This document shows positions 25,704 to 31,513 of a stretch of DNA of 37,364 bases, piece by piece. The first letter of the stretch is position 1; every line of letters begins with the position of its first letter. Source of the DNA: Mucilaginibacter sp. (GTDB taxonomy: Bacteria > Bacteroidota > Bacteroidia > Sphingobacteriales > Sphingobacteriaceae); contig JAQBOK010000230.1 of assembly GCA_028288085.1 (NCBI GenBank), positions 1 through 37,364 of the forward strand. The letters run 5' to 3'. A program made the translations under genes and the position numbers. The notes under the pieces were generated by a model that ran no database searches, was not told where the DNA came from, and saw only the letters and a program-made list of their open reading frames with translations.

Positions 25704-26444
25704 CTATATCCCCAGCACTTGTTTCAACTTCGCATAACCTGTTTTGCTAACCGGTATCTTAGCGCCCGATTTAAGGATGGCAAGGTGGGCATCTTTTTCA
25801 TAAGGGTCTATCCGGGTGATATCCTGTATCTTAATTATATAGGAACGGTGCACACGAACAAACTGTGTTGGGTCAAGCATCTGCTCAAAAAAGCTCATGG
25901 TTTTATTTTTCAGGAATGAGCCTTCCTTGGTATGCACGCTTACGTAATCATCATCAGCTTCTAAATATTCAACATCAGCAACCGGGATGATCTTCACTTT
26001 GGTCCCCGTTTTCACCACAATACGCTCGTGTTGCGCGGGTGATTGTGCAGCGGTATCTAAAAGGTTTTCGGTTTGCTTTACAACCTGGGCAGGTGTTTGG
26101 GCCAGAAATTTTTCAACTGCTTTGTTAAACCGGTCCTTGCTGAAAGGTTTCAGCAGGTAATCAATGGCGTGGGTTTCAAAAGCTTTGATTGCATATTCGT
26201 CAAAAGCTGTGGTAAAAATTACCGATGGCGGCTGTTCCACCAGTTCCAGCATTTCAAAACCATTTATTTTAGGCATTTGCACATCCAGGAATATCAGGTC
26301 GGGCTGGTACTGCTGAATAGCTTTCAGACCTTCAAAGCCATCGTTACATTCCTGTAAAACTTCAATATCTTTAAAATTCTGCAAATATTCCAGTACAACT
26401 AACCGGGCTAAAGGTTCATCATCAATAATAAGTGCACGCTTCAT
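25704..26444 (-). CDS. LytTR-family response regulator
   Basis: 246 residues. The N-terminal receiver has Asp8-Asp9, phosphoacceptor Asp54 (LIFLDVQMP) and Lys99 (LLKPF). After a Gln/Ala/Thr-rich linker, the C-terminal LytTR DNA-binding domain spans about 143-246 (VEYLEADDDYVSVHTKEG and FVRVHRSYIIKI). LytTR proteins bind pairs of direct repeats about 21 bp apart. Its ATG overlaps the kinase stop by 4 bp, and the kinase is its presumed phosphate donor. The operon also carries a LiaF-like protein. Candidate binding sites lie upstream of the operon's first gene (28671) and of the LiaF-like gene at 31394. Confidence 0.93.
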   Translation of the reverse strand: MKRALIIDDEPLARLVVLEYLQNFKDIEVLQECNDGFEGLKAIQQYQPDLIFLDVQMPKINGFEMLELVEQPPSVIFTTAFDEYAIKAFETHAIDYLLKPFSKDRFNKAVEKFLAQTPAQVVKQTENLLDTAAQSPAQHERIVVKTGTKVKIIPVADVEYLEADDDYVSVHTKEGSFLKNKTMSFFEQMLDPTQFVRVHRSYIIKIQDITRIDPYEKDAHLAILKSGAKIPVSKTGYAKLKQVLGI

Positions 26445-27475
26445 ATTTGTGGAATTTTAATAATTGTTGTAAATATATTATCATTTGCATGAGTTTCAAC
26501 CAGGTCAGTGCGTGCAAAAAGCAAATCGAGCCGTCTTTGCACCCCGCTCAGCCCAAAGCCAGTACCTTTGCGCGGTCTTGCTGTTTTAGGGTCGTATGGG
26601 TTTTGTATCATCAATGTCAGGTAGTTATCTTCCATTTCGGCCCTTAAACTAACAGTTACACTTTCGGTTGTATCATAAAGGCCAAACTTAATAGCATTTT
26701 CAACAATGGGCTGCAATATCATTGAAGGTAATTTGCAATCCTGGCATTTTTTGTCGCAGCTTATCTCTGTCATCAAACGATGCCCAAAACGCACTTTTTC
26801 AATATCCAAATATAACTGCAAATGCGCTAACTCCTCGGTTAAAGTAACCTGTTGCTGATCGTCTTTTTTAAGGGTTCCACGCAAAAAGTCAGATAGCTGG
26901 TGGATCATCTTTCTGGCCTCATCAGGTTTAAAACCTATTAAAGCGTTGATGGAGTTGAGGCTATTGAACAGGAAATGTGGTTGTAATTGCTGCCGCAGGT
27001 TGTATAATTCGGCGTCGCGGGCCAGTTTCTCAGCCTCCGCTTTTCTTTTTTCGTTTTCCTTTTGGTCCTGTTGCGAATACCAGATCATGCTGATCATGGC
27101 CATCCACCCGATAGCTAAAAAATCAGTAAAGAAACGGATGGTTAACGACAGGATTACAAAATTACTGTAAACCGAGTTGTTGTTTACATAGGGCAATATC
27201 CAGCGGCAGCCAAATGTACAGGCGCCTGCCAGTGCTACACACCAGAAAAATATATTAATATAGCTGCCTTTGCCCGGCTGAAAATAACGAAGGTTATTAT
27301 TGATAAGCCAGCAAGCTGCTGCCAGCAGCACCGAACTGATGACGCCATCTGTAATGCCGATGAACCATGCAAATCCAAAACCGTGTATAAGGTAAGTTAA
27401 CAATGCGGCCCAAACAAGGCCACCTGTTACAAACGCTGTACGCAATTTTGAAAATGTTAACGGTGAATTCGCCAA
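26441..27475 (-). CDS. LytS/YehU-type sensor histidine kinase
   Basis: 344 residues. Four predicted membrane helices (about 14-38, 42-58, 72-92 and 103-133) with no large periplasmic domain, then a cytoplasmic coiled linker and a His_kinase domain with LQPHFLFNSLNSINAL (His167). The ATPase part has PSMILQPIVENAIKFG and KGTGFGLSGVQRRLDLLF. The compact membrane sensor resembles intramembrane-sensing kinases of envelope stress, with the LiaF-like protein encoded two genes upstream as possible partner. It precedes the LytTR regulator with a 4-bp overlap. Confidence 0.93.
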   Translation of the reverse strand: MANSPLTFSKLRTAFVTGGLVWAALLTYLIHGFGFAWFIGITDGVISSVLLAAACWLINNNLRYFQPGKGSYINIFFWCVALAGACTFGCRWILPYVNNNSVYSNFVILSLTIRFFTDFLAIGWMAMISMIWYSQQDQKENEKRKAEAEKLARDAELYNLRQQLQPHFLFNSLNSINALIGFKPDEARKMIHQLSDFLRGTLKKDDQQQVTLTEELAHLQLYLDIEKVRFGHRLMTEISCDKKCQDCKLPSMILQPIVENAIKFGLYDTTESVTVSLRAEMEDNYLTLMIQNPYDPKTARPRKGTGFGLSGVQRRLDLLFARTDLVETHANDNIFTTIIKIPQI

Positions 27476-27495: not shown

Positions 27496-27831
27496 TTAAT
27501 TTTTTATGCCCAGCAACGCCGATTTATGGTGCGCCCATGCAATATAAAGGTCGGCATCAGGCGCTTCGTGTATCTGGTAATATAGTTCAGTGCCGTTAGA
27601 CAGGTCATTCAACTGGTTAATCTGGGCCACATCAATAAACTGCCATTTAACCTGCTCACTTTGATTATTTAGAAAACTATCCTGATTATTAAGACCTATA
27701 CGACTTGCTTTTTCAAAAGCCTGATGTTCATCATCTGCACTTATCAATCGCAGTTGCTCATCAAATTGTGCATGGTGATTGCCATTACCGCTTACTATTC
27801 TGAAAACTATTTTTGCTACGTACCAATTCAT
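27496..27831 (-). CDS. DUF4288 family protein
   Basis: 111 residues, cytoplasmic, no signal peptide. It begins MNWYVAKIVFRIVSG and contains FDEQLRLISADDEHQAFEKASRIG, both typical of DUF4288, a small alpha/beta family of unknown function. It lies 18 bp after the LiaF-like gene and 20 bp before the kinase gene, so it belongs to the same transcript; a regulatory role in this signalling operon is a guess. The start at 27831 gives the standard family N-terminus. Confidence 0.65.
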   Translation of the reverse strand: MNWYVAKIVFRIVSGNGNHHAQFDEQLRLISADDEHQAFEKASRIGLNNQDSFLNNQSEQVKWQFIDVAQINQLNDLSNGTELYYQIHEAPDADLYIAWAHHKSALLGIKN

Positions 27832-27849: not shown

Positions 27850-28671
27850 TTAATAGCTGCGTATATCTATTCCGGCAAAAATTGAAACACCTTTTAGCAC
27901 CAATATTTTATCGGCATTGGGGTTGGCGGTACTCCTCATTCTTTTATCATCCACGCTGGCAAATACTGCGGCAATGTCTGACACTACCTGCCAGTTAGAA
28001 GGCACTACGATCTTGGTGCCGCCAAATATTTGAGTGATATCAATAACTACCCGCCCGTTGATGTCGGCCTGGGTCATGTCAAGTTCAGCGCCACCAAAAA
28101 TATTCACGATGTCGCCGCCCTTAAAGTCTTTTGCTAAAATGGTCTTTTTAACTCCGCCAAATACGGATACCGCGTCCAGGTAATCGTCACCATATGAATG
28201 TGGCGCCCCACCGGTAAAATCTTTATTGGTATCCGGAGGAATGTTATTAGGGTCTGGTGCGGGTTGGTTAGGTTGCGGAGTGCGCCAGTCCCATTTATTT
28301 TTATCCCAGTCTTTTTTCCATGTTTTACTATCAAAATTATGGTTGCGTCTTAATATCATCCAAAGGCCGAATACAATAATCATAACCGGCCATGTAATGT
28401 GGTCTACCTTGTATCCGGGAAAAGCGTCATTTAACAGGAATACCATGCCGACAAGTACCATAATGAACCAACCGGAGTTTCTGAAATTATGTTTAGCTCC
28501 ACTATAAAGCCCTATCACAATCAATATCATTGGCCACCTGAACAACCAGAATGGGAAAGCGAAAATGCTCAACTGGTCTAGCAGGAGTATAGCCCCAACA
28601 ACCAGTAGTATAACCCCCGCAATTGCTTTGTTACTGCGTGGTTTGTTTTGTAAATCTATATTGTCACTCAT
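27850..28671 (-). CDS. LiaF-like/DUF5668 membrane protein
   Basis: 273 residues. After a short polar N-terminus, four predicted membrane helices span about residues 15-110 (AGVILLVVGAILLLDQL, FRWPMILIVIGLYSG, WFIMVLVGMVFLLNDAF, WPVMIIVFGLWMIL). A linker rich in Asp, Pro and Asn follows, then a C-terminal beta-rich LiaF-type domain (about 165-273; SVFGGVKKTILAKDFKGGDIVNIFGG and IFGGTKIVVP), containing three FGG repeats. LiaF in Firmicutes inhibits the LiaSR pair. Here it heads an operon with DUF4288, a membrane kinase and a LytTR regulator, so a similar sensing or inhibitory part is plausible but unproven. A truncated paralogue lies at 31035-31394. Confidence 0.82.
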   Translation of the reverse strand: MSDNIDLQNKPRSNKAIAGVILLVVGAILLLDQLSIFAFPFWLFRWPMILIVIGLYSGAKHNFRNSGWFIMVLVGMVFLLNDAFPGYKVDHITWPVMIIVFGLWMILRRNHNFDSKTWKKDWDKNKWDWRTPQPNQPAPDPNNIPPDTNKDFTGGAPHSYGDDYLDAVSVFGGVKKTILAKDFKGGDIVNIFGGAELDMTQADINGRVVIDITQIFGGTKIVVPSNWQVVSDIAAVFASVDDKRMRSTANPNADKILVLKGVSIFAGIDIRSY

Positions 28672-28690: not shown

Positions 28691-28795
28691 AATCTTATCC
28701 AAAACTAAGGTAATACTTAAGGCGAACCTATCAAATATTGGCGATATAATTAAACAAGTCGGTAAGATCGGATAAATTGTCGGTGAAAAATTTCA
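28691..28795 (-). promoter_or_regulatory. Conserved promoter with paired LytTR-like direct repeats (LiaF operon)
   Basis: On the minus strand, a -7 element TAGTTTTG (28700-28707) lies about 29 bp before the ATG. Upstream are CCAATATT (28734-28741) and two ACCGAC-containing 9-bp direct repeats (cores 28779-28784 and 28758-28763) with a 21-bp period and 12-bp spacer. The whole stretch aligns without gaps with 31409-31513 upstream of the second LiaF-like gene. The geometry fits an activating LytTR site at about -60 to -90. Confidence 0.7.
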
Positions 28796-28850
28796 TCGTT
28801 GATTATTTGCGGTACTTATGATATATTCACGGCACCTTATTACAAGATAA

Positions 28851-30004
28851 ATGGAAACTGAATATACCACATCTATCGGCTACAAAATTTTTTATGGTGT
28901 GCTTGGGGCCGTCGCTTTTATCGCGGCATTTGCTCTTTTTAAAACGAAGGCTGATGCCAGTTCAAAATTAATATACCTGCTTCCCTTAGTTATGGTGGCT
29001 GGTGGAATAATGATTTTCCTGAACTTATTTAAAAGAAAGATCGTCATCACCGATGATAGCATTACGTACTCATTTATTTTTAAAACGATAGGAATAACCT
29101 TTGATCATATTAAAGGCTTCAGGGTTGGCGATAAGGCTATTTATATTGAGCCTGACCAGGAAGGGTATGCCAAAATCAAAATTGGCGATTATATGAGCAT
29201 TGGTGATTATAAAGGCTTGAAAGCATGGCTTAGCACTAACTTTAAAGATTTGGATAAAGTAGAGTATGAGGAAGAAAAAAAAGCAATTTTACATGATTCC
29301 ACTTTAGGCGCAACTGAAGCAGATCGTGAACTGAAATTCAACAATGCAAGAAAATACACCATAGTTTACAGCATAGGTGGCATAGTATTGTTGTTCGGTT
29401 CGATGATTCTGCACAGAAAGATGTACCTGTTATCTTATGTTCTGTTGATCTATCCTTTGGCCGGCGCCCTGTTAATGGGGTTTAGTAAGGGTTTGATCAG
29501 ATTGTTCGCCAAGAAAGCAGCGCTTATGCATCTGTGTTTACCGGGTTGTTTTTCCCGGCTGTTGCGCTTGTGATGCAGGGCGCTGTTGACACAAAAGTTT
29601 TAAGTTACGATAATGTATGGGCTCCGTCCCTGGCAATTGGATTCGGTATGATTATCGCTTTATACTTTGCCGGAATAAAAAAATCAAACGAGTCAATAGT
29701 TGGCCAAATAATTATCGCTGTTGTGATTGCCGCGGCGTATGGATTTGGAAGCACTATGCAGATCAATAGCGTTTTTGATCAGTCAAAACCACAGGTTTTT
29801 AATGCGATGGTGACCAATCGCCATATAACACACGGAAAAAGCACCACTTACCACCTCATATTGAGTGAATGGGGTCAACATCATGAATCTGATAATATTT
29901 CGGTATCAGAAGCATTTTATTACCAGGTACAAGTTGGATCGCAACTAAAAATAGATCTAAAAAAAGGCACACTTAACATCCCCTGGTATTACGTAGAACA
30001 ATAG
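28851..30004 (+). pseudogene. Polytopic membrane protein gene, frameshifted near 29.5 kb
   Basis: Two overlapping frames form one membrane protein of about 385 residues. The first (ATG 28851, METEYTTSIGYK) has two membrane helices (about 9-30 and 40-58), a compact beta-rich part like a PH domain (KIVITDDSITYSFIFKTIGI, then FDHIKGFRVG) and two more helices before leaving frame at a stop at 29571-29573. The second frame, starting upstream of 29534 without its own promoter, resumes with YASVFTGLFFPAVALVMQG and ends in an extracytoplasmic domain (THGKSTTYHLILSEWGQH to NIPWYYVEQ). Around 29488-29494 the run aagggtttgat would need one more G or T to join the frames. No family is recognised. It is divergent from the LiaF operon. 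Confidence 0.65.
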
Positions 30005-30015
30005 TTGGGCTTGTT

Positions 30016-30930
30016 TTATTTCTTCGGCAAAGTTACCGTAATACTCCACCCGCTCCCACTACCAATATGATATACTTTAGCAAAATCGCCTTGATTTAAG
30101 GCCAGTGAAAATTGTAACAAGCTATTTAAATACGCCAAAGGCTTCCCTTTTGCAACCGCGCCAAAGGTTTGGCAAAAGGGCGCATCGCCTGTATAAACCT
30201 GTTTGTTGTTATGGTAGATGGTTATATGAAATACGTCTCCATACTTCGGTTTGAGCTGGTTTGTTAATGAATCTGTAATGTTAGTCCAAACGTTGCCGTA
30301 CTGCACGTCCAAAATCGCAATATTACCTTTCAGGGTTTTACCTTTTAATACGGCTGTTTGATAGGGTAAGCTAACTACGTGGTTTGGTAATGCAGGCCCA
30401 ACCTGTTCAAAAGTGATTACACCTGCAGCAAGCCTTGCACCGGTAAATGCATACACATCACGCCCGTGAAAAGTATATGATTTTTGTGAGTCCTTTCTGC
30501 GGTTCACAGCTTCGTCTATTTCTCTTATTTCAGTAATTCCCAATGATTCTGCTATCAAGGTTAGAGTTCCATTGTCAGGAGTAACAATGTAATGGCCTGT
30601 CTTTGTTTTAAGCACAACAGATTTCCTTTGTGTACCTACACCGGGATCAACAACAGAAACAAATACGGTACCCTTTGGCCAATACCTTACGGTTTGTTCC
30701 AGTCGGTAGGCTGCTTCCCATATATTGTAGGCAGGTATTTCATGGGTAAGATCGTATAACTTCAAATCAGTTGAAACCCCCATGGCAACCCCTTTCATAG
30801 CAGAAACGGCGCCATCCTTTACTCCAAAATCTGATTGGAAAACAACAATTTTGTTTTGAGAATAGGAGAATTTTGCAAATAATAGCAGTAGGGTGACGCA
30901 GATAATTGCAGGTAAATTTTTCTTTATCAT
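30016..30930 (-). CDS. Secreted SAM hydroxide adenosyltransferase-like protein (DUF62 family)
   Basis: 304 residues with a signal peptide (residues 1-25, ending FSYSQ), so it acts outside the cytoplasm. The rest matches the SAM hydrolase/chlorinase-fluorinase family: SDFGVKDG (33-40), THEIPAYN (62-69), VDPGVG (94-99), PDNGTL (118-123) and FHGRD (154-158). The family's Asp-Arg-His triad is seen as Asp95, Arg102 and His155, with spacing close to the archaeal SAM hydrolase. The halogenases lack this triad, so hydrolysis of SAM to adenosine and methionine is the best prediction. An exported form is odd because SAM is cytoplasmic. The gene converges with the membrane protein gene at 30004. Confidence 0.85.
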   Translation of the reverse strand: MIKKNLPAIICVTLLLLFAKFSYSQNKIVVFQSDFGVKDGAVSAMKGVAMGVSTDLKLYDLTHEIPAYNIWEAAYRLEQTVRYWPKGTVFVSVVDPGVGTQRKSVVLKTKTGHYIVTPDNGTLTLIAESLGITEIREIDEAVNRRKDSQKSYTFHGRDVYAFTGARLAAGVITFEQVGPALPNHVVSLPYQTAVLKGKTLKGNIAILDVQYGNVWTNITDSLTNQLKPKYGDVFHITIYHNNKQVYTGDAPFCQTFGAVAKGKPLAYLNSLLQFSLALNQGDFAKVYHIGSGSGWSITVTLPKK

Positions 30931-30958
30931 ATTACCCCTAAATCTAATAGATATTTGT

Positions 30959-31010
30959 TAAAAAAAAGAAAGCCAGGCAAATCTGTATCGCCTGGCTCCT
31001 ATTTTTTTTG
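30959..31010. terminator. Bidirectional rho-independent terminator
   Basis: Perfect 8-bp stem AGCCAGGC (30971-30978) with GCCTGGCT (30990-30997) and an 11-base loop. It is flanked by an A-run on the left (T-tract on minus) and TATTTTTTTT on the right. It ends the minus-strand LiaF-like gene at 31035 and separates it from the SAM hydrolase gene. Confidence 0.85.
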
Positions 31011-31034
31011 GAAAGATTACTATCGGATTGTTTC

Positions 31035-31394
31035 TTATACTGATTTTTCAGGATAATCGGTATCTGCCTTTTTGTGATGCCTTAATACCATCCATAAACC
31101 CGCTCCAATAATACCAGCAGGCCAAACCACGCGGCTGGCATCGGCAACATTTTCAGTAAATAAAAACGCTACACCCAAAAATATCATGATTACCCATATC
31201 GGTTTCCTGAAATTGTGTTTAACACCTGTATAAATGCCAAAAGCAATTAACCACATTGGCCAGCTAAAAAGCCAACCGGGTATAAAAAACAAGTTTAATT
31301 GATTGATCAGCAATAAAGCGCCTACTGTTAATATGATTACACCGGCCACAGTTTTATGGTTAGTTTGATTTTGGTTTTCTATAATAGTTTTCAT
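31035..31394 (-). CDS. Stand-alone DUF5668/LiaF-like membrane domain protein
   Basis: 119 residues, almost all membrane: four predicted helices (about 17-34, 38-54, 66-82 and 88-104). It is a close paralogue of the membrane half of the protein at 27850-28671 (AGVIILTVGALLLINQL against AGVILLVVGAILLLDQL; KHNFRKPIWVIMIF against KHNFRNSGWFIMVL). It lacks the C-terminal LiaF domain. Its upstream 105 bp are also paralogous to the LiaF operon promoter. It is followed by a strong terminator, so it is a single-gene unit. It may compete with or modulate the full-length LiaF-like protein, but this is inference. Confidence 0.85.
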   Translation of the reverse strand: MKTIIENQNQTNHKTVAGVIILTVGALLLINQLNLFFIPGWLFSWPMWLIAFGIYTGVKHNFRKPIWVIMIFLGVAFLFTENVADASRVVWPAGIIGAGLWMVLRHHKKADTDYPEKSV

Positions 31395-31408
31395 CGTTTT
31401 GAATTTTA

Positions 31409-31513
31409 AATCTTACCCAAAACTACGGTGCTATCACAGATCCATCAATCGAATATTGGTGGTTGGTTTAAAGAAGTCGGCAGATATAAGGAACTCGTCG
31501 GTGAAAGATGTTT
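31409..31513 (-). promoter_or_regulatory. Conserved promoter with paired LytTR-like direct repeats (stand-alone gene)
   Basis: It carries the same elements at the same spacing as 28691-28795: TAGTTTTG on minus (31418-31425), CCAATATT (31452-31459), and two (A/G)CCGAC repeats (cores 31497-31502 and 31476-31481; the second is GCCGAC) 21 bp apart. Intervening bases differ much more than these blocks, which suggests selection on the motifs. The -7 element is about 24 bp before the ATG. Confidence 0.7.

Follow-up and report, generated by a model that had tools for sequence, protein, structure and literature searches.

A candidate LytTR-type operator-promoter shared by a LiaFSR-like operon and a LiaF-TM paralogue in Mucilaginibacter

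Two minus-strand stretches in a 37,364-nucleotide piece of Mucilaginibacter DNA (the whole analyzed stretch, referred to here as the window) share one arrangement of direct repeats and promoter elements, one in front of an operon that encodes a LiaF-like protein, a kinase, and a LytTR regulator, and the other in front of a stand-alone LiaF-TM gene. Judged from sequence, this shared stretch is very probably the operator-promoter through which a LiaFSR-like envelope-stress system with a LytTR-type regulator activates its own expression. Support comes from the sites, their spacing, their conservation, the genes that recur beside them, and the joint absence of site and regulator.

The operon runs on the minus strand in the order LiaF-like gene, DUF4288 gene, kinase gene, and REC-LytTR gene. 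The LiaF-like protein has 273 amino acids (27850..28671; PF22570, PF18917, and PF09922 over cut-off) and is followed by a DUF4288 protein of 111 amino acids, also an operon member (27496..27831; PF14119). The LytS-type histidine kinase of 344 amino acids (26441..27475; PF06580) carries an H-box and four transmembrane segments predicted by a simple hydropathy scan. The response regulator of 246 amino acids (25704..26444; PF00072 and PF04397) is the presumed binder of the sites; together with the LytS-type kinase, its LytTR domain and its receiver with a phospho-acceptor aspartate make up a LytTR two-component system, and that residue, D54, is kept in 78 of 78 aligned sequences, its own included. 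The best 80 of 362 related loci found with the regulator belong to Mucilaginibacter wherever the genus is named. A search of solved structures gave almost exclusively receiver-domain matches among the 60 matches listed and was discarded as a guide to DNA contacts. The stand-alone LiaF-TM gene (31035..31394, minus strand; 119 amino acids, PF22570) lies 2.4 kb upstream of the operon; in BLASTP, 115 residues align between its product and the N-terminal part of LiaF at 45% identity. Two genes without a Pfam match (240 and 156 amino acids; 28851-30004, plus strand) diverge from the LiaF gene. Many genus loci have relatives of one or both genes close to the operon, at 25 to 47% identity, as if the pair were fast evolving.

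The original prediction held that 28691-28795 and 31409-31513 align without gaps, and this was borne out. As ungapped reverse complements, the two stretches are identical at 67 of 105 positions; the best 105-bp ungapped match in 299 random pairs of 179-bp stretches drawn from the window averaged 42 identities and never exceeded 49. The operator-promoter of the operon spans 28693..28792 and that of the LiaF-TM gene 31411..31510, both on the minus strand as alignment rows. R1, a sequence-only promoter profile for which genome matches were counted at an E value of 0.01, matches them at 28694-28791 (E 4.6e-23) and 31412-31508 (E 1.0e-16), E values that are not independent because both promoters are rows of the model. 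Also as predicted, TAGTTTTG, CCAATATT, and the (A/G)CCGAC cores are all present at equal distances in both stretches. In the operon promoter, the half-site 1 core ACCGAC (28779..28784, minus strand, as are all elements that follow) precedes the half-site 2 core ACCGAC (28758..28763) by 21 bp and a putative half-site 3, GCCAAT (28737..28742), lies another 21 bp on, upstream of the -7 element TAGTTTTG of the TAnnTTTG type (28700..28707). The LiaF-TM promoter has ACCGAC (31497..31502) as half-site 1, GCCGAC (31476..31481) as half-site 2, ACCAAT (31455..31460) as putative half-site 3, and a -33-like TTG (31446..31448) located 20 bp before its -7 element TAGTTTTG (31418..31425); the LiaF promoter has TAG in place of this TTG. 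Both promoters resemble LytTR promoters, in which a pair of direct repeats of about 9 bp, spaced by 10 to 13 bp, lies just upstream of the -35 or -33 region: here the cores are 21 bp apart, with putative half-site 3 at positions 42 to 47 and the TTG-like element at 54 to 56. A genome-wide search for the paired cores had been proposed as a way to define the regulon. It found 5 places in the organism's own genome and 5 with the reversed pattern, and the two-core pattern alone was therefore rejected as a regulon marker. That pattern by itself is not rare; the evidence is the whole layout together with its conservation.

Within Mucilaginibacter, an orthologue of the regulator was found in 34 of 36 relatives at 80 to 91% identity. 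At all 34 loci the kinase adjoins the regulator, and LiaF gene and kinase lie upstream of it in that order; a DUF4288 gene stands between LiaF and kinase in part of these loci. The layout was scored on 24 consensus columns that comprise a pair of ACCGAC-type cores, with a 21-bp step between them, placed 77 bp before TAnnTTTG. Absence of the motif upstream of orthologous LiaF-like genes had been named as the outcome that would speak against the prediction, and the motif was kept in all 34 loci with at least 19 of the 24 columns. In each case the site lies ahead of the gene that heads the operon, which is LiaF in 30 loci and LiaF-TM-like in three (L042, L050, and L053), the remaining locus being L052, where the row is shifted by one base. 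In those three loci a LiaF-TM-type gene directly precedes LiaF and one site serves the pair, an arrangement that fits common control. Three LiaF genes inside operons scored 13 to 15 of 24, and 19 of 20 further LiaF-TM-type genes at genus loci scored at least 19. The strict pattern, with both cores RCCGAY and 21 bp apart, was found at 21 of the 34 loci. A set of 49 genus promoters was used for column statistics; it omits L052_LiaF, L043_TM1, and L048_TM1 (one-base shifts), L054_TM1 (degenerate first core), rows scoring below 19, and every row of L074 to L076. ACCG in core 1, CCGA in core 2, and TAnnTTT are invariant in this set, these columns having been part of the selection.

The original prediction described a pair of repeats. 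Its two cores spaced by 21 bp stand, and a third half-site probably joins them, CCAATATT lying at the third step of the 21-bp period. The dinucleotide CC occurs at the corresponding offset (43) in 49 of 49 genus promoters, in a column not used in row choice, and elsewhere between offsets 28 and 75 in at most 19 of 49. Outside the genus, 11 of 17 promoters, selected on sites 1 and 2 and the -7 element, have CC at the third place, compared with at most 3 at other places. The half-site score along the promoter was rejected as proof of a third copy. Offset 42 has the highest mean score in both sets, in the genus barely above offset 39, and no more than 15 of 49 genus rows and 4 of 17 outside rows have it as their single best offset. 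The putative third copy is supported by the CC counts and the 21-bp period and not by the half-site score. Promoter columns 12 to 16, in the spacer that separates half-site 1 from half-site 2, hold a C-rich run of moderate conservation.

The Bacteroidetes sigma-A consensus is given as TAnnTTTG at -12 to -5 in the available text of PMC9723704, and the -7 element here is of the same type, with TAnnTTT in 49 of 49 genus promoters and the final G in 43 (the element was used in row choice). With TAnnTTTG placed at these positions, the half-sites would begin near -89, -68, and -47. The third one sits just upstream of the -33-like TTG, of which the first T is present in 49 of 49 and the last G in 39 of 49 genus promoters. 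Unlike the sigma-A promoters described in that text, those here have repeats in front of the -33 element, and some rows show this element in imperfect form.

LytTR Regulatory Systems (LRS) offer one comparison. The LRS regulator has an inhibitory membrane protein as its partner and is not known to have a kinase or a receiver domain. In HdrRM and BrsRM of Streptococcus mutans, ACC-type repeats about 12 bp apart lie just upstream of the -35 region and serve autoactivation, and LRS-like operons in Bacteroides encode an NfeD-like/DUF2154 membrane protein and a LytTR protein with transmembrane segments (both from the available part of PMC6193735). As far as that part goes, the LRS and the present system have in common ACC-type LytTR repeats with a step of about 21 bp just upstream of the promoter of the regulator's own operon and a membrane partner encoded in that operon. 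Unlike an LRS, the present system is a two-component system with a kinase and a receiver domain, which places it outside the LRS, and it differs further in its LiaF-like membrane protein, its likely third half-site, and its other targets. RcoM1 and CoxC, described in the accessible portion of PMC11347149, are LytTR proteins whose operators each have three direct repeats at intervals of about two helical turns. Those proteins differ in their TTCNNGCA/TTNNNGCN repeats and in CO sensing, no receiver domain is named for them in that portion, and CoxC represses.

The example of CoxC raises the question of whether the protein bound here also represses rather than activates its promoters, and the closeness of the third half-site to the -33 region would agree with that. 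However, in the same portion of PMC11347149 the CoxC operator overlaps the -35 box, while the operator here stops just upstream of the -33-like element, the position of activating LytTR systems in the available parts of PMC6193735 and PMC11347149. Some rows, that of the window's LiaF promoter included, have an imperfect -33 element, which suits an activated promoter. We therefore regard repression as unlikely and activation as the preferred reading.

Site and regulator also largely go together across genomes. R1 matches 99 of 100 genus genomes; 35 of these, the organism's own included, supplied its rows, and 64 of the 65 others match. The sole miss, G032 (95% complete), has no orthologue of the LytTR protein, only paralogues of at most 41% identity. 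A LiaF-TM search of G032 gave two weak adjacent matches. G015 (71% complete) has three R1 matches and no orthologue in the sequence searched. In a family sample of 81 genomes, R1 matched 54 of the 65 with an orthologue, leaving 11 without a match, and 1 of the 16 without an orthologue; since all 16 are 2.4 Mb or smaller, this co-absence is weak and not an independent count. In the one exception, G143, R1 matches twice (E 1.1e-5 and 3.2e-4) and no orthologue reaches 1e-60. Both matches (L326 and L327) precede small proteins without an assigned family. Contrasts within a genus come from G032 and G185 only, G185 being without both site and orthologue and four congeners having both. No such site was found at 8 paralogous LytTR loci searched with up to 1.5 kb on either side; their gapless scores of -27 to -59 were no better than those of a reversed-sequence control, which reached at most -21.9 over 758 kb. 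The 60 regions chosen by R1 and described below all scored above -10, R1 and the gapless score sharing their source promoters.

The prediction that the regulator controls its own operon and the LiaF-TM paralogue is accordingly supported, as far as sequence goes, by synteny, the LytTR-type period, and co-absence. It is improbable that another LytTR paralogue, or several, binds the sites instead. LytTR response regulators are indeed numerous (each of six genus genomes gave 6 to 16 matches at 1e-20), and R1 matches occur in G143 and G015, where no orthologue was found. Yet the site heads the regulator's own operon at 34 of 34 genus loci, and G032, which keeps paralogues, is without both orthologue and R1 match; G185 is likewise without both. 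Further, none of the 8 paralogous loci has the site. Among the aligned regulators two residues never vary: K179 of the LytTR domain (78 of 78), which differs in all 8 paralogues, and R141, which differs in 7 of the 8. The operon-encoded regulator remains the preferred binder.

Outside the genus, the layout was followed with a looser rule that asks for RCC at two or more of three places with a period of 21, together with TA..TTT at a distance of 35. It was kept at 29 of 42 loci of other genera and families and failed at 13; L274, with no LiaF in its stretch, was left out. Controls gave at most 3 loci for other distances, at most 9 for other periods, and 0 to 1 in 20 mononucleotide shuffles. RCCG pairs 21 bp apart were present at 26 of the 42 loci, versus 0 to 7 when other spacings between 10 and 31 were tried. 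At periods of 14 and 28 the looser rule still picks up 9 and 8 loci, matches that may come from a CC-rich run in the spacer.

The original prediction named two targets, the operon and the paralogue. Both are supported, and a wider set of candidate targets had been missed. In the organism's own genome, R1 finds a site before a stand-alone LiaF-C (Toastrack) gene (C302, E 6e-10), before a TM2 gene (C255, E 1e-9), and 459 bases from an ABC transporter gene (C164, E 5e-4), and a weak one before an SDR-PspC operon (C366, E 0.0026), whose gapless score of -25.6 lies inside the control range. The gene beside TM2, which we take to be DUF2752-like, was rejected as a target because it lies upstream of the site in this genome. 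Among 60 regions from 24 genomes, matches with E values up to 1.4e-5 that were taken as lying off the LiaF locus, the site preceded 32 TM2 genes, 7 Toastrack genes (one reassigned after a BLAST match to the C-terminal part of LiaF), 7 SDR-PspC or PspC genes, 6 LiaF or LiaF-TM genes, 3 FAD monooxygenase genes, 2 cyclase-domain genes, 1 ABC transporter gene, and 2 genes without a family. These counts are not genus frequencies, the genomes having been picked mainly for several R1 matches, and strong or paired matches in G068, G096, G108, G111, G117, G118, G119, and G122 were assumed to be the LiaF locus. Start codons of TM2 and Toastrack genes lie 21 to 57 bases past the start of the -7 element. 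At the FAD-binding monooxygenase genes of three genomes (L164, L179, and L185), the ATG follows that start by 13 to 28 bases. The TM2 site was absent at 6 of 8 further TM2 loci from genomes with few R1 matches, five of the six in genomes that have the regulator (G002, G035, G036, G071, and G093). Lack of the TM2 site in G032 was rejected as a marker of regulator loss, since these five regulator-bearing genomes are also without it.

Beyond the genus, 20 family regions were hand-picked from R1 matches, 18 from other genera and 2 from G143. BLAST identified PspC or LiaF-like genes behind the site in three of them, and L332 resembles one of these three. Most of the remaining sites precede what look, from their first residues, like small secreted proteins of unassigned family (L329, L331, L333 to L337, and L342), many beginning with MKTLK. 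Sites before other gene types in this sample imply that the target set shifts. That the two window promoters are alike merely through functionless residual homology after a gene duplication is highly improbable, for although LiaF and LiaF-TM are paralogues whose upstream regions may have a common origin, the 49 genus promoters show conserved blocks at fixed distances with free bases in between, and similar sites stand before unrelated gene families and persist outside the genus.

LiaFSR and VraTSR are autoregulated, and LiaFSR is induced by cell-envelope stress, with LiaF inhibiting the kinase. The present LiaF has a LiaF-like C-terminal domain (PF22570 and PF09922 over cut-off) and, as in LiaFSR and VraTSR in the available part of PMC11237479, is encoded beside a kinase and a response regulator. 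The present system differs from LiaFSR in having a LytTR regulator and not an HTH-type LiaR, in its LytS-type kinase, and in its phylum; it may work like LiaFSR, yet with no HTH-type LiaR it is not a member. In that part of PMC11237479, Firmicutes are the only group named as combining LytTR with Toastrack-LiaF-TM operons. An envelope-stress role is suggested by LiaF, PspC, and Toastrack and by the analogy with Lia and Psp in the same source. Each element of the system has precedents; the combination was not found reported in the open-access literature searched.

For binding, phosphorylation, the sign of control, and the stress signal, we infer the following course. LiaF in the membrane would probably restrain the four-transmembrane kinase, which would phosphorylate D54 of the LytTR protein. 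In this form the regulator would then bind the direct repeats on one helix face at their 21-bp period, using two strong half-sites (YACCGAC) and a weaker third one (RCCAAT/ACCTAAT) next to the -33 region, and would recruit sigma-A RNA polymerase to TAnnTTTG. Its targets would be its own operon, the LiaF-TM paralogue, the TM2 protein, the stand-alone Toastrack protein, and the SDR-PspC operon.

To our knowledge, envelope-stress control in Bacteroidota is little studied. On balance, we lean toward the broader view that much of Bacteroidia has an ancient LiaFSR-like envelope-stress system of LiaF, kinase, and LytTR protein, in which a LytTR activator uses an operator of three 21-bp steps in fixed register with the -7 element and the wider targets are rewired genus by genus. 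The rewired targets would be TM2, Toastrack, and PspC, and in other genera also secreted-looking proteins. The analysis yields a candidate regulator, a base-exact operator, and a short list of targets that includes TM2, the stand-alone Toastrack protein, and DUF4288, and it makes the circuit testable in an environmental genus. It also provides an example of spacing between activator sites and a non-standard promoter that has been conserved in different genera and families.
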